DNA from: Bacteroidota bacterium
GTDB taxonomy: Bacteria; Bacteroidota; Bacteroidia; Chitinophagales; Chitinophagaceae
Direction of reading: 5' to 3'
Length of the DNA: 48,343 bases
Assembly: GCA_029561305.1 (NCBI GenBank)
Contig: JAKQJG010000043.1
Span: 1 to 48,343, forward strand
The number at the start of each line of letters is the position of its first letter. Position 1 is the first letter of the stretch. Positions 30,009 through 41,244 of this stretch are shown one piece after another. Position numbers and translations under genes: made by a program. The notes under the pieces are model-generated. The model was not told the DNA's origin and did not search any database. It saw only the letters and a list, made by a program, of their open reading frames with translations.

Positions 30009-30452
30009 TTAATTTTCCCAAGGCGCTTTACCGTCAACAGTTAAACCCATACTTCTTGCTGTACCGGCAACCATGCTCATGGCACTGTTGAGGGTAAATG
30101 CATTCAGATCGGCCATTTTGTCTTTGGCAATTTCTTCCACCTGTGCCCAGGTAACCTTGCCCACTTTCTGGCGGTTAGGTTCTTTACTGCCACCTTTAAT
30201 TTTAGCAGCATCCATTAACTGAACGGCAGCCGGGGGAGTTTTAATTACAAACTCAAAAGATTTGTCGGAAAAAACAGTGATTAAAACGGGAAGTACTTTC
30301 CCTTGTTTATCCTGGGTTCTGCCATTGAATTGTTTGCAGAACTCCATGATGTTGATACCTTTAGAACCCAGTGCTGGCCCGATGGGGGGTGCTGGATTGG
30401 CTTGTCCTCCTTTACATTGGAGTTTAACATAGCCCGTGATCTCTTTTGCCAT
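30009..30452 (-). CDS. rplK: 50S ribosomal protein L11
   Basis: Part of the GTPase-associated centre of the large subunit; it binds 23S rRNA and the stalk base. At 147 residues it is the usual length, with the N-terminal proline-rich [20 protein letters not shown] signature and the C-terminal rRNA-binding [20 protein letters not shown] region. It is the first gene of the operon. The common neighbours nusG, secE and tRNA-Trp are absent; the four-gene TIR/STAND operon ends 180 bases upstream instead. A strong Bacteroidota-type promoter lies 110 bases before the start codon. Confidence 0.98.
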
Positions 30453-30476
30453 GTGTTACATTTTTTTGGTGATAAC

Positions 30477-30498
30477 GTCTCCAGCAATGGCTGGGGAC
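30477..30498 (-). promoter_or_regulatory. Hairpin in the rplK mRNA leader
   Basis: In the leader transcript GUCCCCAGC pairs with GCUGGAGAC (one C-A mismatch) around a CAUU loop, about 25 bases before the rplK start codon. A leader stem in front of an L11 operon could be an autogenous L1 binding site; this is inferred from position only. Confidence 0.45.
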
Positions 30499-30559
30499 TC
30501 CCAAGTTATAATCTGCCTTCACTAAAGCTATGGCAGATGAAAAGAACTATTTGGGGCGG

Positions 30560-30590
30560 CAAAAGTAGGGGAATTTAGGGAAATGGCAAA
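30560..30590 (-). promoter_or_regulatory. Predicted rplKAJL promoter (TTTG-N19-TACTTTTG)
   Basis: On the minus strand TACTTTTG (30560-30567) matches TAnnTTTG exactly and TTTG (30587-30590) matches the -33 element exactly, with a 19-base spacer. This is the best promoter in the window. The predicted start near 30553 gives a leader of about 100 bases. Confidence 0.85.
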
Positions 30591-30607
30591 TGTTTTTTTA
30601 AACATTT
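30588..30607. other. AAATGTTT hairpin at the end of the TIR/STAND operon
   Basis: AAATGTTT-TTTT-AAACATTT is a perfect 8-bp dyad located 26 bases after the stop of the last gene of the TIR/STAND operon. It overlaps the -33 element of the rplK promoter. It may act as a weak terminator or as a regulator site; an all-AT stem makes strong termination doubtful. Confidence 0.5.
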
Positions 30608-30632
30608 AGTTGGGCAAGCCTGCACATCCTTT

Positions 30633-32480
30633 CTAAAAAAAATTATACACCATACCGGCACTAATTCCAAAAGTACTGTAAACCGACTTAGCAGTTGAAT
30701 TAAATATAGAGTTATACGGTTCGGTTGTTCTGTCAAGAGGTATATACTTTTTGGTTTTTGCCGGCAGCGCAGCGTACGTGAAGTAGAGCCCGCCTCTAAA
30801 TGCAAATGACTCCGTTATCTTTCGGTGCAGGTCAAAGCCTGCATTAACGGCAATGGCATAGCGGTTCAAATTCCTGCTTTTATCACGATAATTTTTATCA
30901 TCCGTAAAATCATAACTCTTTTGTAACTGGGAAAAAACACTGATGGCCCCAGGAGAGGTATTTTGACTATTAATACCTTGTGAAGTAATGTATACATTAT
31001 TGGGAGAAGCTGGATCAAGGTAATTGTCATACACGATGGCTTGCCGGGCTGGGTTTACCTGGTAGATACCGCCCACATTGATCAGTGCATCGTAGTCCGA
31101 AGTGTTTTTAAAGATCACTACAGAAGGCCCAATCTTAAAATTTGCTGATGACAAATTCCTGTTACCAAGGTGTACCCTGTAGTTGAACAGTATGGGGAAA
31201 TTAAGCATATAGTAAGTGATCTTCTCCTGGAGGCTGCGGATAGTTAGTTGCCGCCTGTAGAAATCTCCCCCATCAAACGACTTGTAGGTATACACAATGG
31301 GGTCGGTCAATGTATAATTGGCAGTATACCTTGAAAAAACAGCGCCTACCGACACCCCCATTTTCCTTTTTTTACCAATATAAAATATAACATTTCCCCC
31401 GGCACTGATGCCGGTAATAGAACCTGGATTATTCAGCATACCTTTTTTTGACTGCAGCACATCCACCGCATCATTGCCCGCTTCATCCAGGTAACCCAAT
31501 TGATTCAATTCCGGCAAATTTATGGTGGTGGAATTAACCTGGAAACCAACAAACACATCGCCCAGTATTTTTGAACTAAAATAAGAAGCCGGGCAACCCA
31601 GGTTACTTAAAATACCATAAGTTGTTTTACATTTATCAACAAGCACCGTGGTAAAAAAACCGTCACTGCCTTTTGCTACATCCGTTACGCCATCGAAATC
31701 AAAATCCGGCATACCACTGGCCGTAAAATCGCCCGGCTGCTGCGGAAGACTATCGTCTGCATTCAGCACCACATCTTTATCATCATCATTCCTGCATGCT
31801 ACCAAAAACCGGGGTGTAATATTTTCAATACTTGTAATTTTATATACCCCTTCATTGTCGTACCGCATGGTTACCTGCAGCTCTGCCACTGAACTGAACC
31901 TGTATACAGCATCTTTCCCGTTATTTACCTTTGCCAAAAAGTTTCTTTTCATTACTAAGTTATCAGACGCTCTTTCGAAAAGAATGAACCGGTCACCAAT
32001 ACTCTTCACTACGAAATCCATAGAATCGCCCAGCAAAAATTCCCTTGTCATTTGCACTTCCACATTCCTTTTCAGCTTGTAGGTTACCCGGGCTGGATTG
32101 GCAGTATTGGAATTAAGTATCCAGGCAGTGTCGATATTTAATCCTTTTACCTTAAGTGTAACATCATGCGCATACATATCAAAGGTCCTGGCAACGGTAT
32201 CTGTAAAATAAACCCCTCCCTGCATATAGGTTCCGGGTTTATACAACACAGTGATATCATCTTCCACCATGGCATCTGAATCGAACAGGTTTTTAAACTT
32301 ATTGTACATCCTTATATCTATTGTTTCGCTGTTGCTGTCGATGCCAAGCGTCCATGTGTCAAGCAGATCGTTGATAGTATTTTTTGAGAGCGAATCATAA
32401 TTGATCTTAATATCCCCTGTTTGCTGCGCCATACCAAACAAAGGACCTATCACAAAAAACGATATGATTATATATTTCAT
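30633..32480 (-). CDS. Predicted outer-membrane beta-barrel protein, last gene of the TIR/STAND operon
   Basis: A 615-residue exported protein of no recognised family. The signal peptide ends GMAQQ. Residues about 20-240 are mixed, without clear repeats; 250-275 contain an acidic Ca-binding-like patch (DFDFDGVTD). The C-terminal part (about 330-615) shows alternating amphipathic strands such as NVIFYIGKKRKMGVSVGAVF, YMLNFPILFNYRVHLG and STFGISAGMVYNFF. The terminal Phe is typical of outer-membrane barrels inserted by BamA. The gene starts 10 bases after the giant Ig-like T9SS protein, so a partner role (anchor, conduit or receptor) is likely, comparable to the SprF/PorP partners of surface proteins, although it is longer and not visibly of that family. 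Confidence 0.78.
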   Translation of the reverse strand: MKYIIISFFVIGPLFGMAQQTGDIKINYDSLSKNTINDLLDTWTLGIDSNSETIDIRMYNKFKNLFDSDAMVEDDITVLYKPGTYMQGGVYFTDTVARTFDMYAHDVTLKVKGLNIDTAWILNSNTANPARVTYKLKRNVEVQMTREFLLGDSMDFVVKSIGDRFILFERASDNLVMKRNFLAKVNNGKDAVYRFSSVAELQVTMRYDNEGVYKITSIENITPRFLVACRNDDDKDVVLNADDSLPQQPGDFTASGMPDFDFDGVTDVAKGSDGFFTTVLVDKCKTTYGILSNLGCPASYFSSKILGDVFVGFQVNSTTINLPELNQLGYLDEAGNDAVDVLQSKKGMLNNPGSITGISAGGNVIFYIGKKRKMGVSVGAVFSRYTANYTLTDPIVYTYKSFDGGDFYRRQLTIRSLQEKITYYMLNFPILFNYRVHLGNRNLSSANFKIGPSVVIFKNTSDYDALINVGGIYQVNPARQAIVYDNYLDPASPNNVYITSQGINSQNTSPGAISVFSQLQKSYDFTDDKNYRDKSRNLNRYAIAVNAGFDLHRKITESFAFRGGLYFTYAALPAKTKKYIPLDRTTEPYNSIFNSTAKSVYSTFGISAGMVYNFF

Positions 32481-32490
32481 GCCCTTTGTT

Positions 32491-35400
32491 TTAGTGTTGA
32501 ATGATAAAGCGTGCGGCAGCTTTTTTCAGATCGCTGCTGTTGATTACAATGTAGTACAATCCCTGCGGCAGGTCATTCCGGTTGATTGTTTCCCTTATGT
32601 CCGGCAAGGTTTTTACAAATTGTTTTTTCAGAACCACCTGGCCAAGCGCATTATATACCATTGCCGAAATGTTTCCGTATATATTTCCTTTTACATTGAT
32701 GTTGAAAGAGCCACTGTTAGGGTTAGGTAATATCAACAGTTGCACCACATCCCTTTGTGGTGGCATCACAGGCAGTGGCCGCCTGGCATAAGGGCCATTA
32801 TAGTACACTTTGGTATAGCAGCCACCTTTTTGCAGCAACACCCAGAATTTATAGGTAACCGTATCCAGCTGATTTCCGCTAAAGAACTTATTGCTGTCAG
32901 GCAGGAAGAACTGGTACACCTGGCCTTGTACGGGATGAGGGGCTGAAAAAGAATAATCTGGTGCAGGAGTAATTAAAGAGTCGTAACCCCATTGGTAACC
33001 TGTTACCGGATCCATGGAATTGTCAGGATAGATCAGGATATTACCTGGCTGCTTAAGCAAAATTTCCTGCTCTGTGATACTGCCACCACTTACAACGTTT
33101 ATTGCCTGGGTCACACTATCTCTGCAACCGCCAATATTATTTGTAGCAATGACTTTCACAGAATCCCCGCCTGTTTGCGAAAACGAGATCACGGTATTGG
33201 CACTGTTAACATCCTGTATAGATACACCCGGTGTGTTGGCAGGTATGGTTTGCCATGTATAGGAAATGCCACTAACAGGCACGCTTACATTAAAATTGAG
33301 ATTGCCGGCCGCACTGCACACGTTATTATTGTTGATATCAAGCCATGTAAAATCCGGCCTGGGCGCAGAAGGATTTACTGTAATGGAAAACGTATCGGGA
33401 AGTCCCTTGCACTGAGGATTATCAGCCATCGCAATTCCTACGGCAACCGTTGCAGTTAGTGGCGCTGTGTTGGGATTACTGGCAATAAAACCGGTTATAT
33501 TTGGAGAAGGCCCGATGCCGAAGCCTACAGTCTTATCGCTTTTCCAATCAAACAACACATTGGGCGTATTGCTGTTAAAAGTTATTCCATCAAAATCGAT
33601 CTCTCCATTACAATAGGTAAGATCACTAATCAAACCGGTTACGGGTGTAGGATTAACCGTAATAAAAAGAGAATCTTCCGTAACACAACCCTGACCAGTT
33701 GATAATGTAAAATAATAAGGAACCAATACAGGAGCAGCGGTGATATTATTAAGCGTATCGTAGATGACCGCTGTTCCATTACTACCGGTGTCTCTTTTAG
33801 CGGCATTTCTCAATTCCGGCACAACGTATCTAACCCAACTGAAATTGGTCCGGGTATCTGAACTAAATACAGTATCAGCAAATACAGCACTATCACAAAC
33901 GCTGGTAATGGAAAAACGGGAAAGTACGGGTTTATTTACAACGGTAATTTTAGCTGTATCCCCCTGGGCCTGGGTACAACCATAACTGTCTTTCACAGAA
34001 AGCAGGTTATAGTTATAGGTCGTTACGATATTAGTTGATACATTTACAAAGCCGGAATCACTTCTTACACTTGCTGTGGTATCGCTTGCAGCTCCGTTAA
34101 CGTTATATACAAAGATATAAGGGGCGGCACCACCCGAACCATCAAATATTATTACTGGTTGTTCTGAATTCTGACAAACTGTTTTGCTGCCAGCTATAGT
34201 GGCGGTGGGTAATGGTTTTACCTCTACCGGCTCCGAAATAATGCTTGTATCGGGCGGTGCGCAGGCACCATTTACGATGCAATAATAGTAACCAATACCA
34301 ACAACTGACGTTGAAGGAAACAGTACAGAACGCACTGAATCGGTAAGTAAAAAACTTCCTGTGTAAGACGGAATAACATTTTTGTACCACTGATATTGTA
34401 AGCCGGTACCGGTGGCTGCAACCGAAAGTGGATCGGCACGACTACTCAAACAAACAGTTTGAGCCTGCATTGACTGATTATTGATCACCGGCGGTGTTTT
34501 AATAACCACTTTTCCTGACAAAGCACTGGTAACAGAAGGTGTACAGGTTCCGCTGACCACACAATAATAATACAGGCTTGCTGCTGCAGCAGTTGAGGGG
34601 TAAAAAGACGAGTTGACCGCACCATTAATTAAAGATGAATTTGTATAACTTCTTTCAGTATTGCTGTACCATTGAAAAGTTAACGCAGTTCCTGTAGCAT
34701 CCACGGTTAATGGAGACGAAACATCTCCCAAACAATAATCTATATCTACACCTGGTGGCTGAATGATAAGAGCAGGAGGTTCATAAACGGTAACAGCACC
34801 TGATACATTACTTATTATGTTATCGCAATCTCCCGAAACAATACAATAATAGTAAAATGTGCCTGCTATATCTGTTGGAGGCAAAAAGGAGTTTGCAGTG
34901 GCTCCGGTTATTAACTGCCCACCAATAACGGTTGAACTTGAATTTTTATACCATTGATACCTGGCAGTTCCGCTGGCTTCAACGGAAACGGGAATAACAG
35001 GGTTGCCTAAGCAAGCAGCCTGGCTTGTTAGCGAGGGTTGTGCAACTATAGCAACGGGCGCAGCTATTTTTACAAAACCGGATATGTTGCTTGCTTCACC
35101 TGTGCCGCAGCCACCTGTAACAATACAATAGTAATAATGCGTACCAATAATATCAGATGGGGGCGCATAAAAAGAATCCGTAGCACCAGTAACTTCACTG
35201 GCGCCTGCATAACCGGCTGTTGTGTTACTATACCACTGATATTGCAATTGCCCGTCTCCCTGGGCACGTACCGTTAATGCTGCTGTTGGAGTATTAAAAC
35301 AATAAGCCGTGTCGCGGATGGATGGCCCATTGCTAATCACAGTGGGCTCCTTTATATAAACCGGGCCAGCTGTGTTGCTGGCAACCGCTCCTGTTGCACA

Positions 35401-36471
35401 AGCCGTACTGTAAACGATACAATAATAAAAAAGCGGACCACCAATAATTGATGAGTCAGGGTAAAAATAAGGACTGTTGGTTCCTATCGGCGAATTAGGG
35501 AATGTTGTCTCACGCCAGCTATAAACAAGATCAGTGCCTGTAGCACCAACATAAACAGGTGTTGTATTCCCGTTTTGACAAATAACCTGGGCTGTTGTTA
35601 CTGGTTGAGTAATAATCTGCGGCAAAGGCTTTACGGTAATAGCGTCGATTGTTACGTTAACGGCATCATCGCACCTGCCGGACACTCTACAGAAATAGTA
35701 AAAGGTTCCGGCAGTATTTGTCAGCGGAATACAGGTTGCACCCGTTTCACCACTCAATACGGCAGCTGTTGCAAAATTATTTACTGTATTAATATACCAC
35801 TGGTATGTAAATGGCTCCCTGCCACTAGGCGTAGCCGTTAGACGATCAGCGCTTGCATCCTCCCCAACGCAAAAAACATTTCCTGAAGTTATAATATCAA
35901 CCCCGGTAGCCGGGATAACTGTTATTGATATCTGTTCAGGACTGCTTTCACAACCGTTGGCTCCAATGCCTATGACAGTATAAACAGTTGGCAGGGCGAT
36001 AGCCGTGGGATAAACAGGAAATGGATTACCGACTGAGTCCTGGGCAAAACCGTCACTGGACCACGAAAATGAATTGGCACCCAATCCTACCAATGTGCAT
36101 ACCTGGCCTTCGCAGATTTCGGTACCAGGAAAAGCATACAGACTTATAACCGGTTGCGTCAGATCTTCTGTAATAATGATGGAAGATGAACTTATGCAGC
36201 CTGCGTTATCTCTCATTTCTACTGTATAAACTCCCGGCAAGCTCGCATCCAGCGTTTGTCCGTTAAGTGCTCCCCATGAATACGAGACCGGATCCACTGA
36301 TCCTGTTCCGGGATTTGCCGTCAGCGTGATGGTTGTATTAGTACAATTTAATACAGTACCAGCTACATTATTATTATCTACCCCGGTAATAGTTACAGTG
36401 CATTGCGCATACACAATACTGTGAGTATGCAATACCACGATCAACAATAGTATTAAATTTAACTTTTTCAT
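32491..36471 (-). CDS. Giant secreted Ig-like repeat protein with T9SS type A sorting domain
   Basis: A 1326-residue surface or extracellular protein. Signal peptide 1-22 (ending VYAQ). Residues about 190-790 hold at least six tandem Ig-like modules of roughly 90-100 residues; each has a QWY/SW strand near the middle and a conserved YYYC-V-G-C strand at the end (for example HYYYCIVTGGCGTG, FYYYCIVSGDCDN, LYYYCVVSGTCTP). Further PKD-like modules follow to about 1150. The C-terminus (about 1245-1326) is a T9SS type A tail (LLILPNPNSGSFNINV ... GLYYIVINS). It may bind ligands or surfaces by repeats, as in adhesins. Its start codon overlaps the STAND gene stop by four bases (ATGA), which ties an exported protein translationally to a cytoplasmic TIR/STAND pair; this is unusual. 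Confidence 0.9.
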   Translation of the reverse strand: MKKLNLILLLIVVLHTHSIVYAQCTVTITGVDNNNVAGTVLNCTNTTITLTANPGTGSVDPVSYSWGALNGQTLDASLPGVYTVEMRDNAGCISSSSIIITEDLTQPVISLYAFPGTEICEGQVCTLVGLGANSFSWSSDGFAQDSVGNPFPVYPTAIALPTVYTVIGIGANGCESSPEQISITVIPATGVDIITSGNVFCVGEDASADRLTATPSGREPFTYQWYINTVNNFATAAVLSGETGATCIPLTNTAGTFYYFCRVSGRCDDAVNVTIDAITVKPLPQIITQPVTTAQVICQNGNTTPVYVGATGTDLVYSWRETTFPNSPIGTNSPYFYPDSSIIGGPLFYYCIVYSTACATGAVASNTAGPVYIKEPTVISNGPSIRDTAYCFNTPTAALTVRAQGDGQLQYQWYSNTTAGYAGASEVTGATDSFYAPPSDIIGTHYYYCIVTGGCGTGEASNISGFVKIAAPVAIVAQPSLTSQAACLGNPVIPVSVEASGTARYQWYKNSSSTVIGGQLITGATANSFLPPTDIAGTFYYYCIVSGDCDNIISNVSGAVTVYEPPALIIQPPGVDIDYCLGDVSSPLTVDATGTALTFQWYSNTERSYTNSSLINGAVNSSFYPSTAAAASLYYYCVVSGTCTPSVTSALSGKVVIKTPPVINNQSMQAQTVCLSSRADPLSVAATGTGLQYQWYKNVIPSYTGSFLLTDSVRSVLFPSTSVVGIGYYYCIVNGACAPPDTSIISEPVEVKPLPTATIAGSKTVCQNSEQPVIIFDGSGGAAPYIFVYNVNGAASDTTASVRSDSGFVNVSTNIVTTYNYNLLSVKDSYGCTQAQGDTAKITVVNKPVLSRFSITSVCDSAVFADTVFSSDTRTNFSWVRYVVPELRNAAKRDTGSNGTAVIYDTLNNITAAPVLVPYYFTLSTGQGCVTEDSLFITVNPTPVTGLISDLTYCNGEIDFDGITFNSNTPNVLFDWKSDKTVGFGIGPSPNITGFIASNPNTAPLTATVAVGIAMADNPQCKGLPDTFSITVNPSAPRPDFTWLDINNNNVCSAAGNLNFNVSVPVSGISYTWQTIPANTPGVSIQDVNSANTVISFSQTGGDSVKVIATNNIGGCRDSVTQAINVVSGGSITEQEILLKQPGNILIYPDNSMDPVTGYQWGYDSLITPAPDYSFSAPHPVQGQVYQFFLPDSNKFFSGNQLDTVTYKFWVLLQKGGCYTKVYYNGPYARRPLPVMPPQRDVVQLLILPNPNSGSFNINVKGNIYGNISAMVYNALGQVVLKKQFVKTLPDIRETINRNDLPQGLYYIVINSSDLKKAAARFIIQH

Positions 36472-39374
36472 TTCCCTTTATTGTAAAGATTTGCCGGGTC
36501 AAAATACTTTTTCTTAAAATCCGGTGGAATCGTTTTACTGCGTTTGTATTCAGCCAGTATCTCTGCTGTAAACGGGTTCCATCCATAGAGGGTTTCTCCC
36601 CCTCTTTTTGATCTTACTTTTATGATGATTCTCCTGTTGTCCTTTGCATCATTGGTAAAAGTGGCGTTCACCACATCCAGCAGGTTTTTCTCCGGCAGTA
36701 TATTGCCGGATAATTTTTTATCAGGTTTGGGCATATTATCATCCAGCTCATATACCACCACCCGGCTTCTTTTTGCGGCAGCTAATAAAAAATACCGTTT
36801 TTCTCCAGCAACTGTATAACTGAAGAATTGTATGGCGGTGATAGCAGAACCCAGCGTGTTTTCAAAAACAGGTTGATTTCTTATGTTTGTATGATACTCT
36901 ACGTAACCAATATCACCGGTTTCCAGACCAAAATAGATGATCTTTTTTTCACTGTTGTAATCAAGTGCCGTTACCTGTGCCCCAAGCGGAATTTTGCTTT
37001 CTTCTATCAGTGTGTTACCGGTGTTTTTATAAACATAAATCCAGTTATCTGTGGTGGAGCAAATGATAAGGCCGCTGCTTTTATCAACAGTGAAGGCGAT
37101 GATCTTTCCTTTACAGCTTTTACTTACTTTTTTGTAATCAGCGTTGCTGCTGTCGGGTTCATTTTTGAAACGGCCTGCGTAAGTTGTTTTATCAAAAACA
37201 GTCCGCCTGGTTTTGCTGTTGCTGGTGATTGTTTCAAAACAAGCGTATGTTTTTTCATACAGGTCATTATTAAAATACAGCCGCTCTCTCAATGCATTGT
37301 AATCATCCTTTGCCTTTTTATCTTTAATAGCATCGATCAATGGCCGTAAACTGTCGAGATGATTACAATAGGCTATCAGTTTATAGTCGAAAGAGTCTTT
37401 CTCGATCTTAATTTTATTAGTGGCGCCTTCACGGATCAGCCTGGCATATTCGTTTGCGGCTATCTTTAAATTCTGATAAGCCACTTTATCTCTTTGTATC
37501 TGCGCCACCGCTGCAATGGAATCTGATATTTTCCGCTGGCGCTGTGCCACTGCTGCACTGTCTTTTGCAATATCACGCTGCAGTTTGGCAGCCTCTGCGC
37601 TGTCACTGGCTATCTTACGTTGCTCTTTGGCTACAGCTGCACTGTCATTGGCAGTTTGTGCATTTAATTCTGCAATACCTTTTAGCCGTTCTGCTTCTTT
37701 TCTTAATTTGTTAGCTTCTGCTGCATTCTTTTCTGCCTTGGCTGCGTTTTGTTTTGCCTTAATTGCATTTTGTTTATTCTCTTCTGAAAGATTGTAATAC
37801 CTGAATCCAAAAATGATAGCGCCAGCCAATATTACCGACATTACAAACAACATGGCTGTGATGCGTTTTTGCCTGGCTGCTTTCTTTTCTAATTCAAGAC
37901 GTTGCCCGGTTTCCGCTTTTTCCTTTTCCTTTTCCAGTATGTCTTCATCATGACTTGTTTTAAGGTACTGCATTGTTTTTACAAAATCGCCCTTGTAACC
38001 TTCGGCCCATTTTGCAGTTGGTTTATTCTCATTTTGCCATTTCAAAGCGATAGCCAGTTCAGGGTCTTTAAGCCAGCCCCTTTGCCCCTGTTCTTTTAAC
38101 TCCTGAGAATTAGCAAGGCGCATAAACAGATCTCCGCTACGCCCCTCTTCTATCGTCCATTTTACAAGCTCATCCCACACACGCATGAGGCTTTCATGAG
38201 AAATATCAATGATAGAGTCATCATGCAATTCCACATGCGGTGGTGGCATTAAAAAAGTGCGGCCCGGCTTTCGGAAAGTTTCTATGGATTTGCAAATTTC
38301 ATCCCTTGTGCTTCCTGTAAGTAACATCAAATCGGCAATACTCCTTGGCCTGCGGGTTCCTCTTTTATCCGCTGCTTTATCTGTGAGTGCCTTGAACATC
38401 AATTCGCATATTTTTTGCTCCTTTCCTGCTGATAGTTCATTGTAGGCTTCATTGGCATGTATTGACAGGGCATTGCTCATAGTGCCTATCTTTTCATAGT
38501 CTTCAAAGTCAATAGGTGTATCATGTTGCCCCCTGTCATACCATTCCTGCCAGGTCCGCATCATGGCATGTTGCAGTATCGGCAGCTGGTCTGTATCATT
38601 ATTTACATCATTCAATAACCTGGTTACCAGCCGTTGGCTGATAGTGGCACCACTAACGGCAACGGGCCCTGTAATGGCCTCCCGTATCTCTTCACGTGTC
38701 ATTCTTGGAACCAGGTATTGTCCTTCATTTATTGCTTCGGGTAATCCACGAAACTCTGCACAGTCGCCTAGAAAGTCTGCACGCATGGTAAGTAATACAT
38801 AAATGGGATAGGTTGCCTGCTGAGCGGCTGTTAGCAGTATTTGCACAAAATGCATGGCATCACTTTGACCCAGCCGGTTTTCTTTTTCGTACTTACTGAA
38901 ACGAAACAATTCTTCAAACTGGTCCACCACCACCAATAAACTTTCATTCCCGGGTAAATGAGCGTCTTTATATACTTGTACCAAACCATTTTCACTTCGG
39001 CGCAAGCTGGCTTCAATAATTGATTCCAGCGGAATATCACTGTCGGGCTTTTTATGAAATAAAGCTCCTTCGGCTGCAAGCTCCCTGGTAAGATAACCAA
39101 TGGGATTTTCGCCTGGCTGCATTAAAGCCACCCGCCAGTTGCTGCCAACTTTCATAAATCCGCTGTAAACAGAGGGCAATAACCCAGATTTTACCAGGGA
39201 GGATTTACCGCTGCCCGAAGCTCCGATAACAGCAAGAAAACGGCTGTCGCTTAATTTTTTAAGCAACTCATCAATCTGCTTACCCCTGCCAAAAAACAGG
39301 TAGTCTTCCGTTTCTTCGAAAGACCTTAGCCCTACAAAGGGATTAGCCAATTGAGCAACAGCAGTATTACTCAT
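36468..39374 (-). CDS. Membrane-spanning STAND-family NTPase (nSTAND1-like) with coiled coil
   Basis: A 968-residue signal-transducing ATPase. Walker A GASGSGKSS is at residues 51-59 and Walker B VVVDQFEELF (Asp151, Glu154-155) shows the DQFEEL signature of nSTAND1. The conserved arm motif DISHESLMRVW is at 390-400. A positively charged segment (RQKR) precedes a single membrane helix at about 505-524, then a long coiled coil of KDSAAVAQ-type repeats (530-645), then a beta-rich part to the end (about 750-960, possibly a propeller-like sensor). By the positive-inside rule the NTPase is cytoplasmic and the coiled coil and C-terminus are periplasmic. In this family ligand binding drives oligomerisation and activates an effector. 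It overlaps the TIR gene by eight bases and the Ig-like gene by four. Confidence 0.92.
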   Translation of the reverse strand: MSNTAVAQLANPFVGLRSFEETEDYLFFGRGKQIDELLKKLSDSRFLAVIGASGSGKSSLVKSGLLPSVYSGFMKVGSNWRVALMQPGENPIGYLTRELAAEGALFHKKPDSDIPLESIIEASLRRSENGLVQVYKDAHLPGNESLLVVVDQFEELFRFSKYEKENRLGQSDAMHFVQILLTAAQQATYPIYVLLTMRADFLGDCAEFRGLPEAINEGQYLVPRMTREEIREAITGPVAVSGATISQRLVTRLLNDVNNDTDQLPILQHAMMRTWQEWYDRGQHDTPIDFEDYEKIGTMSNALSIHANEAYNELSAGKEQKICELMFKALTDKAADKRGTRRPRSIADLMLLTGSTRDEICKSIETFRKPGRTFLMPPPHVELHDDSIIDISHESLMRVWDELVKWTIEEGRSGDLFMRLANSQELKEQGQRGWLKDPELAIALKWQNENKPTAKWAEGYKGDFVKTMQYLKTSHDEDILEKEKEKAETGQRLELEKKAARQKRITAMLFVMSVILAGAIIFGFRYYNLSEENKQNAIKAKQNAAKAEKNAAEANKLRKEAERLKGIAELNAQTANDSAAVAKEQRKIASDSAEAAKLQRDIAKDSAAVAQRQRKISDSIAAVAQIQRDKVAYQNLKIAANEYARLIREGATNKIKIEKDSFDYKLIAYCNHLDSLRPLIDAIKDKKAKDDYNALRERLYFNNDLYEKTYACFETITSNSKTRRTVFDKTTYAGRFKNEPDSSNADYKKVSKSCKGKIIAFTVDKSSGLIICSTTDNWIYVYKNTGNTLIEESKIPLGAQVTALDYNSEKKIIYFGLETGDIGYVEYHTNIRNQPVFENTLGSAITAIQFFSYTVAGEKRYFLLAAAKRSRVVVYELDDNMPKPDKKLSGNILPEKNLLDVVNATFTNDAKDNRRIIIKVRSKRGGETLYGWNPFTAEILAEYKRSKTIPPDFKKKYFDPANLYNKGK

Positions 39375-40956
39375 GGCCTGGCAAGTTTACACGTTGGATA
39401 AAGGTGGAAAACAGATCTGCACTGAAGCCGTTGATGCCATTGATAACCTGGAGGTCGATGGCTTTGAAAGTTCCCTTATCATTATCTGCGGGGCCGGCAA
39501 TGTAAACAGCTTTATCCAGCAGTGGTTTTGTGCGTCCCAAAGCCGGCAGGCGCATCAGGTCGCTTTTCATACTGCCCGCCCAGCGGTAATTGGCCGCACC
39601 GTAATAAATGATCACCGCATCACAGATCTTCAGGTTGTCGAGATGTGCCTGGCGCAGTTGTGCCTGGTCACCATCAAAAAGCGGAAGCAATATCTCATGT
39701 CCATTGTCATTCACCAAATCTTCTATAGGCCTTGTATGATCCAGATCCCGTTGATCACATATGAGGTAAACCAGCTTTGGACCATCCCGCTTTGCAGTTA
39801 ATGATACACCCAATGGAATGCCAGCAGTATATTTCTTTGCTTTTTCTTCGGCTTCTCTCTTTGCATCTTCCTTTGCTTTTTCTTCGGCTGCCAACCTTCT
39901 TATCGTGTCAAAGATGGCCTGCTTTAATTCTTCCAGCGGGCCTTCCAGGATATCAGCCCCCTTTTGATATGCCGGATTTGTTTTAAGTTCTTCTATAAAA
40001 CTTTTTTGCTGCTCCAGCATTTTTGGATTGATAGCGGCATTGACTTCAGCAGGCGGTGTCCATATAAGCCGGCTTAGGTTCCCCGTTTCACTTTTTTGTG
40101 CCGCTATTTCATTTTGCAAAATTACCGTTGATTTGTCTGCACCTTCAGGCTGGGCAGCATAGTTGGTAGTGCTGATAAGGTGTACAGACAAGATACTTTC
40201 ATCCAGATATTTTTCCACTTCTTCCGTGTACCGGTTGATTACGTTGGGCAAATTTTTAGCGGGCAATACTGCAAAGCCACCCTCCTGCAACTCACGGGCA
40301 AGATTATCCCTGTATATCTGCAGATCATACGTGGTTTCGGCCAGGTATATTTTCTTTTTTTCAACGTCACTTTTACCGGAACTGTTTAGCTTTTTGATCA
40401 GGTTGGCCATGTCCTGAACCACATCCTCCAGCTTGTTCATGTATTCCTGCTTGATCTTATTATCTACCCAGCTGCCCCTGCTCAGTTCTTTAAATTTTCC
40501 AGTAGCCGTATCCTGGATGTAAAATTTATAGTCCAGTATTTCGTCAAATATTTTAGATATGCCATCAGGTAAATGCGCTATCACATCCCTGTCCACCGGC
40601 GTTTTCATGATCTTGAATATTCTTGATTTGTTTCCGATGCTGACACCACCATTTTCCGCAGCGGCTTTATAAAAAGCTCCCAGTTCCCGCCTGCACCAGT
40701 CAGAACTGAGGTACCGTGGTGTAATGACAGAAACCATTATTTTTAACAGGGGCAGCTGTGATTCAATTTCAGGTGCAAACACTTCATTGCCACTGAGCTT
40801 TTCGTCCCGCCAGATATTTATTTCATAGCCAATAGTTTGCTCCAGCCTTGTTTCAAGCAAACGGTGGAAATCAGATATCCAGCCTTTAGCACCCTCATCA
40901 AGCGGCTTGTCATCCAGATGAGCATAGCTGATAAAAACATCTTTTTCAGATTTCAT
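39367..40956 (-). CDS. TIR-domain protein with three TIR-like segments
   Basis: A 529-residue cytoplasmic protein; no signal or membrane segment. Domain 1 (about 5-150) is a TIR fold: DVFISYAHLDD start, RYLSSDWCRRELGAF with Glu91 at the position of the catalytic Glu in NAD-cleaving TIR domains, so NADase activity is possible. Domain 2 (about 200-350) restarts as KKIYLAETTYDLQIYRDNLA and reads as a second TIR-like Rossmann fold. A Glu/Lys/Ala helix (352-378) links it to domain 3 (393-529), starting KLVYLICDQRDLDHTRPIED and including CDAVIIYYGA, a third TIR-like fold without an evident catalytic Glu. It is the first gene of the operon and overlaps the STAND ATPase gene by eight bases (ATGAGTAA), so it is probably the effector or adaptor of that ATPase. 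Confidence 0.9.
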   Translation of the reverse strand: MKSEKDVFISYAHLDDKPLDEGAKGWISDFHRLLETRLEQTIGYEINIWRDEKLSGNEVFAPEIESQLPLLKIMVSVITPRYLSSDWCRRELGAFYKAAAENGGVSIGNKSRIFKIMKTPVDRDVIAHLPDGISKIFDEILDYKFYIQDTATGKFKELSRGSWVDNKIKQEYMNKLEDVVQDMANLIKKLNSSGKSDVEKKKIYLAETTYDLQIYRDNLARELQEGGFAVLPAKNLPNVINRYTEEVEKYLDESILSVHLISTTNYAAQPEGADKSTVILQNEIAAQKSETGNLSRLIWTPPAEVNAAINPKMLEQQKSFIEELKTNPAYQKGADILEGPLEELKQAIFDTIRRLAAEEKAKEDAKREAEEKAKKYTAGIPLGVSLTAKRDGPKLVYLICDQRDLDHTRPIEDLVNDNGHEILLPLFDGDQAQLRQAHLDNLKICDAVIIYYGAANYRWAGSMKSDLMRLPALGRTKPLLDKAVYIAGPADNDKGTFKAIDLQVINGINGFSADLFSTFIQRVNLPGHE

Positions 40957-41204: not shown

Positions 41205-41244
41205 AGTGTTTTCACGGTATTTTACCAGTGTTTTCACGGTATTT
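41205..41244. repeat. Tandem 18-bp direct repeat with 22-bp period (candidate activator sites)
   Basis: AGTGTTTTCACGGTATTT occurs exactly twice, at 41205-41222 and 41227-41244. The 22-base period equals about two helical turns, so both copies face the same side of DNA. They sit about 60 and 82 bases before the predicted transcription start of the glycosyltransferase, a position typical of activator sites. Confidence 0.65.

Follow-up and report, generated by a model that had tools for sequence, protein, structure and literature searches.

Zorya couples envelope sensing to a cytoplasmic effector, and in the Fec system (FecA-FecR-FecI) an outer-membrane protein signals to a sigma factor through an inner-membrane protein, which spans the membrane once and receives the signal with its periplasmic portion. 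Conflict systems built on nSTAND1 and other STAND NTPases combine a variable sensor with neighbouring effectors of TIR type, and in the main text of the paper that describes them (eLife 2021, PMC8195603) the terms 'outer membrane', 'TonB' and 'periplasm' each count 0. STAND/NACHT targets of diversity-generating retroelements in Thiohalocapsa are, in the relevant passages of their description, antigen-sensor proteins, with one variable domain predicted to be periplasmic (PNAS 2024, PMC10907252). Here, a four-gene operon is analysed on a 48,343-nt stretch of DNA from a Bacteroidota bacterium of the Chitinophagaceae (GCA_029561305.1, contig JAKQJG010000043.1, forward strand; hereafter the window). 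The operon joins genes for a TIR protein, an nSTAND1 NTPase, an immunoglobulin-like (Ig) repeat protein with a sorting tail of the type IX secretion system (T9SS) and an outer-membrane protein (OMP), and is interpreted as an envelope-spanning conflict sensor, most likely for immunity or self-destruction, with a probability of about 0.52.

Results

A STAND protein with a predicted periplasmic propeller

All four genes are encoded on the minus strand (40956-39367, 39374-36468, 36471-32491 and 32480-30633). The first three overlap successively by 8 and 4 bases, and a gap of 10 bases separates the third from the fourth, as the initial annotation had described. The second gene (36468..39374) encodes a 968-amino-acid (aa) protein in which an nSTAND1 NTPase domain (residues 12-423, 38106..39341; PF20703, E 6.2e-89; Walker A GASGSGKS at residue 51, Walker B at 147) is followed by a single transmembrane helix called by hydropathy (residues 505-523, 37806..37862) with lysine or arginine on its N-terminal side, and then by a helical and WD40-like propeller region (residues 641-968, 36471..37454) that is predicted to be periplasmic. 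One helix preceded by basic residues was found by hydropathy in 11 of the 11 STAND proteins examined, and an AlphaFold model of the STAND C-terminus is a WD40-like propeller. A sequence-based search of solved structures returned nothing for this protein, and Pfam at E 1 revealed no effector-associated (EAD/Death-like) adaptor in any of the four proteins, such domains being fast-diverging.

The evidence that ties the propeller to the outer membrane comes from relatives of the operon. An alignment of 44 OMP homologues (44 of 46, two shorter ones being excluded) served to scan genome contigs; this yielded 96 relatives, and 80 loci were kept. OMP searches matched 299 of 394 family genomes and 263 of 395 class-sample genomes, nearly all in the linker of the protein among the matches listed, and just those matches extending far past the linker were counted as OMP relatives. 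Full-length OMPs are present in six other genomes, G304, G149, KR4 (L037), G063, G077 and G208, at loci L035, L036, L037, L039 and L040 and at L038 and L041, which are pieces of one genome; the neighbourhoods examined are those of these and the window's genome, seven in all. In every one of the seven, an Ig/T9SS gene and this propeller domain accompany the full-length OMP, and five have TIR-nSTAND1 as well (G208 being pieced together across contigs). The order TIR-STAND-Ig-OMP is kept in G304, G077 and G063, and in G208 as far as contig breaks allow; STAND C-termini in these genomes are 47% (G304), 37% (G077), 38% (G063) and 43% (G208) identical to that of the window. In G149 and KR4 the first gene is of another kind and is followed by a short protein of nSTAND1 type that has a helix, by a propeller encoded on its own, and then by Ig and OMP. 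Their separate propellers are 37 and 36% identical to the window's STAND C-terminus, whereas the adjoining NTPases are just 24% identical. Among 394 family genomes, a propeller profile matched 6, which are also those with a full-length OMP; these genomes contributed rows to the profile, and the weight of the result rests on the 388 genomes without a match.

The separate propellers also have hydrophobic, signal-like N-termini, with 10-residue hydropathy values of 2.9 and 3.5 (Ig 3.3, OMP 2.5, TIR 0.5, STAND 1.2), which strengthens the case for a signal peptide. Since full-length OMP and propeller co-occur, and since the propeller is separate and apparently secreted in relatives, it is probable that the STAND protein's propeller half lies in the periplasm as a partner of the outer-membrane pair, and contact between the two is likely. 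It might be argued that the operon merely places two unrelated modules on one promoter, TIR-nSTAND1 and an adhesin/barrel pair that does a job of its own at the surface: TIR-nSTAND1 occurs without Ig-OMP in G323, G372, G097 and G131, distant Ig-OMP pairs lack TIR, and one distant pair in G097 has neither system beside it on the side seen. As a leading reading this was rejected because propeller and Ig-OMP remain together despite a changed first gene and NTPase, and the absence of the propeller from the 388 other family genomes further argues against it, leaving it improbable.

The TIR protein as candidate effector

The first gene (39367..40956) encodes a 529-aa effector candidate comprising an N-terminal TIR domain (residues 7-101, 40654..40938; Pfam PF13676, TIR_2, E 1.4e-8, above cut-off), a weakly matching DUF4062-like middle domain (residues 202-261, 40174..40353; E 0.055, under cut-off, with PF13271 precomputed for many listed homologues) and a third domain matching no family. 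The genome search placed the TIR domain identically, and a profile of TIR homologues compared with solved structures matched a plant TIR at E 0.008. Glu91 (codon 40684..40686), the predicted catalytic glutamate, lies within SSDWCRRE, an instance of an SxWCxxE motif; it is unchanged in 32 of 32 aligned homologues, picked among 120 listed of 736. The motif is present in 11 of the 12 locus TIRs, the remaining one lacking that region at a contig end. Because of the TIR domain and its glutamate, NAD+ cleavage would be the most likely output, and the TIR protein is probably the output enzyme. The window's genome contains further TIR genes (L178, L177): two matches on contig C182, one of them in a protein that begins ParA-like, and one in a 612-aa protein on C285.

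Of 394 family genomes, 30 have a TIR match, which is clear in 13 (>130 bits, the window's included); none of nine other genomes of the genus has one, so that occurrence is patchy. A search for conserved four-gene neighbourhoods had been named at the outset as one way to check the operon, and its result is favourable: TIR/STAND pairs share both downstream genes, Ig and OMP, in 5 of the 13 clear-TIR family genomes (one pieced across contigs), and, with Ig and propeller beside every full-length OMP, the downstream genes are not mostly alone in this subfamily. At the remaining 73 loci of the OMP scan (L042-L114) the OMP was matched outside the barrel piece only, and 0 of 73 have a TIR protein, NTPase, propeller or TssR at E 1e-5. 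For 11 of the 46 OMP clusters (the window's own included), the longest contig is, by eye, the same size as that of one of the 120 listed TIR clusters, which agrees with linkage.

A variable surface protein and an OmpA-like barrel

The third gene (32491..36471) encodes a 1326-aa secreted Ig-repeat protein with five stretches of PF19081 (Ig_7) and a C-terminal type A T9SS sorting domain (PF18962; TIGR04183 above cut-off). The T9SS marker GldK, the only T9SS component searched, scores 590 bits against a cut-off of 350 in the window's genome. Five complete Ig relatives are 1235-2109 aa long. Identity per 100-residue block, calculated over six relatives (one partial) with gaps scored as differences, is 14-29% across the N-terminal Ig array (residues 1-900, 33772..36471) and 34-64% across the C-terminal 426 residues (32494..33771), which carry a YQWGYDS motif and the T9SS tail. 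This pattern fits a variable outward face upon a conserved anchor, and the variability of the array would also be compatible with relaxed constraint.

The product of the fourth gene (30633..32480) is a 615-aa OMP without any Pfam match, for which AlphaFold models a small OmpA-like barrel and an NTF2-like domain. The NTF2-like domain (residues 23-229, 31794..32414) is predicted to be periplasmic; it is followed by an aspartate-rich TSP3-like linker (approximately residues 231-300, 31581..31790), which has a profile match to 5wtl, an OmpA family protein, at E 4.7e-16 over profile positions 229-282, and by the OmpA-like beta-barrel (residues 302-615, 30636..31577). Neither the NTF2-like nor the WD40-like match is indicative of function, both being common folds.

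A second class with TonB receptors

In four genomes (G323, G372, G097 and G131), TIR-nSTAND1 stands beside a TonB receptor and Ig-OMP is absent; a homologous MFS-like protein follows the receptor in G323, G372 and G097, above the Pfam cut-off in G097 only. The NTPases of these TonB-linked STANDs are 55-59% identical to the window's, close to the values for G208 and G063 (61-64%). The window's propeller region has no significant match in the four proteins, and ordinary WD40 propellers end all three TonB-class STANDs scanned. Judged by sequence, the TIR-nSTAND1 core occurs with two kinds of outer-membrane partner, each having its own propeller type. Among the other clear TIR genomes, the G333 contig ends inside STAND, G110 and G357 have TIR without an adjoining STAND, and G316 is partial.

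The full second cassette (L117, L121, L123 and L124) reads TrkA-N, TIR, nSTAND1, TonB-dependent receptor and MFS-like, the last being unseen in L124. A TrkA-N type homologue precedes TIR in 7 of 7 second-group genomes (G323, G110, G333, G372, G357, G097 and G131), with a weak RyR match in G323. In KR4, the OMP is followed downstream by a DUF4231/SLATT protein and another protein of nSTAND1 type (L037:11940-14587).

The TonB class bears on whether the same envelope wiring might serve ordinary sensing of envelope stress, nutrients or kin contact, the TIR protein making a signal with no killing or immunity. A TonB receptor in four genomes, with an MFS-like protein in three of them, suggests uptake or Fec-like signalling, and the defence library gave no strong match. 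However, TIR, nSTAND1 and SLATT are conflict-type domains, and a distribution in which TIR is missing from all nine other genomes of the genus is ill-suited to a housekeeping sensor. Ordinary sensing is therefore regarded as unlikely, if the most credible of the alternatives, and a use in conflict is favoured on account of the kinds of domain present, the SLATT neighbour in KR4 and the patchy occurrence.

Relatives of the Ig-OMP pair in type VI secretion loci

The membrane complex of the type VI secretion system subtype iii (T6SSiii) has been described as TssNQOPR, with TssR as a possible outer-membrane lipoprotein, and the terms 'barrel' and 'T9SS' count 0 in the text available for that paper (Nat Commun 2024, PMC10781749). 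Outside the family, OMP matches extending far past the linker were found in the class sample in G637, G659, G716 and G456, among the matches listed. The order Ig, OMP, PKD protein (TssP type), a protein of ~200 aa and TssR is seen in G637, G716 and G456, G659 stopping at a contig edge, and in G716 the Ig-OMP pair lies between TssN/TssO genes and TssP. G149 has a second Ig-OMP pair, of T6SS type, which precedes TssP-like and TssR-like genes and then ClpV-like, TssC, Hcp, VgrG-like, TssE-like, TssF and PAAR genes. Comparison of the two OMP group profiles (hhalign) gave E 1.6e-41 across 530 columns, and YQWGYDS or a near variant also occurs in the Ig proteins adjoining T6SSiii-type OMPs. The Ig-barrel pair is accordingly put forward as a candidate outer-membrane component of divergent T6SSiii.

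Ig/T9SS and barrel genes stand directly before a TssP-type gene in the divergent T6SSiii loci L175, L173, L176 and L213/L219 (G716, G637, G456 and G149, respectively). The G149 locus (L213) contains three tandem TssR-like ORFs and then an 816-aa protein resembling by position the ABC/FtsX-type one of L176. The idea that all T6SSiii have an Ig-OMP pair found no support: TssR is strong in three of 192 sampled genomes, and the pair was detected at E 1e-14 in G456 and not in G565 or G414.

Membership of the window's operon in T6SSiii was likewise rejected, since a TssR search of its genome gave a VWA-type match below cut-off (21.8 bits), other T6SS genes not having been searched. The OMP is homologous over its full length to OMPs inside T6SSiii membrane-complex loci, as the profile comparison indicates, and the operon could on that ground be a pared-down relative of T6SSiii that secretes or injects, the TIR protein being the toxin it delivers. 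Besides the TssR result, the TIR protein has no PAAR-like Pfam match and its N-terminus is not hydrophobic, which makes such a device very improbable.

Flanking genes and upstream repeat

The gene rplK lies immediately downstream of the operon (30009-30640). The likely nusG of the window's genome, next to an EF-Tu gene, is on a different contig (C249), and the nusG-rplK junction is also variable in five genus relatives (L202-L206), with an intervening gene of 155 aa in G126, three genes in G381, spacing of ~1 kb in G311, and, in G241 and G034, best NusG-family matches that are distant or lie on a different contig. Upstream of the TIR gene, the 18-base sequence AAATACCGTGAAAACACT is repeated exactly and directly on the minus strand (41205-41222 and 41227-41244; chance expectation 0) and is a possible regulatory site. 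The window has no Rfam match at gathering thresholds.

Discussion

The data allow the construction of a model in which the Ig protein would be exported by the type IX system and would sit at the surface of the cell together with the OmpA-like barrel, whose NTF2-like and TSP3-like parts would extend into the periplasm. The STAND protein would span the inner membrane once, its WD40-like propeller facing the outer-membrane pair. Perturbation of the surface pair, by phage, a rival cell or a bacteriocin, would act via the propeller on the nSTAND1 NTPase in the cytoplasm, causing it to oligomerise and activate the TIR protein, so that NAD+ is cleaved and the cell stops. As a prediction from sequence the envelope-spanning wiring is well supported, and immunity or self-destruction as its purpose is somewhat better than an even proposition.

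Several points weigh against this model. Few independent loci are available (seven genomes), and the independent cases are two split loci only, G149 and KR4, whose first gene matches DUF4062 below cut-off only and is present as two ORFs in KR4. Co-variation among nine full-length STAND proteins could be simple descent, given that the TIR tree places the two groups apart; the NTPase tree separates the Ig-OMP and TonB groups weakly. Topology was assigned from hydropathy and signal peptides rather than by a trained predictor, the N-termini of the separate propellers are under the 19-residue helix threshold, and the propeller model was built from 7 sequences. PADLOC gave weak matches only for the four proteins (best E 0.0015). 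Mobility is unsupported, the TIR protein having no match in a phage collection and the OMP none in a plasmid collection. Furthermore, related Ig-barrel pairs serve T6SSiii-type loci, and on one contig of G097 (C9, L221) an Ig gene and a barrel gene of T6SSiii type occur in a visible stretch that gave no match to TIR, STAND, TssP or TssR. The barrel protein there is 648 aa long with the barrel in the N-terminal half, the Ig gene extends off the contig, and the contig stops short of the other side.

The Ig-barrel pair is thus not specific to immunity, because related pairs are found in T6SSiii-type loci and, in G097, beside neither system, and the G097 case speaks against any fixed link between the wider pair and the sensor or T6SSiii. 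The pair belongs both to the present sensor and to one divergent subtype of T6SSiii, and can also occur apart; its reading as a module shared by the two is weakened by the G097 pair, which stands apart from both. For the envelope-spanning sensor that the initial annotation proposed, support is partial: the conserved inner-membrane helix, the propeller that tracks the outer-membrane pair and the apparently secreted separate propellers speak for it, and the distant Ig-barrel pairs, in T6SSiii loci or on their own in G097, speak against. New relative to that annotation are the propeller, the class with TonB receptors, the exchange of the first gene and the relationship to T6SSiii.

A broader generalisation is offered tentatively. 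Cell-surface immune receptors might be made by joining an NLR-like NTPase to a receptor in the outer membrane via a periplasmic propeller, the propeller being matched to the receptor module (Ig and OmpA-like barrel, or TonB receptor) and the cytoplasmic effector being exchangeable, with the Ig-barrel module common to divergent T6SSiii, perhaps as an outer-membrane port absent from the described membrane complex. If the sensor model is true, one TIR/STAND class reads surface events before entry, across two membranes, beyond cytoplasmic surveillance. The modular pattern, with the propeller matched to the receptor and the first gene swapped, provides a direct route to finding more such systems, and the T6SSiii link indicates a candidate outer-membrane component for a complex in whose published description, in the text available, one possible outer-membrane member is named.

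Within a literature search of limited reach, no outer-membrane partner for a STAND system and no envelope-spanning TIR/STAND system of this make-up were found in print. Like Thoeris, the operon has a candidate TIR effector; identity with Thoeris was rejected because in PADLOC ThsB is matched at E 0.036 only and ThsA is unmatched in the four proteins; other listed defence systems were rejected on weak PADLOC matches. Its envelope-to-cytoplasm coupling is like that of Zorya, for which the four proteins have no match. Divergent T6SSiii encodes Ig-OMP homologues within its membrane-complex cluster, and in the window's genome no TssR match exceeds the cut-off. In common with nSTAND1 conflict systems, the operon has an NTPase with Walker A and B motifs and a linked TIR_2 effector gene, a linkage kept in relatives; it differs from those systems, as their main text presents them, in that its sensor half would lie past an inner-membrane helix and is accompanied by a T9SS surface protein and a barrel in the outer membrane. 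The Thiohalocapsa proteins are retroelement-diversified, lectin-type sensors, and the passages on them mention no outer-membrane partner. Fec-type signalling is the closest working analogue, especially for the TonB-receptor class, with the difference that the output of the operon would be a STAND NTPase and a TIR enzyme instead of a sigma factor.

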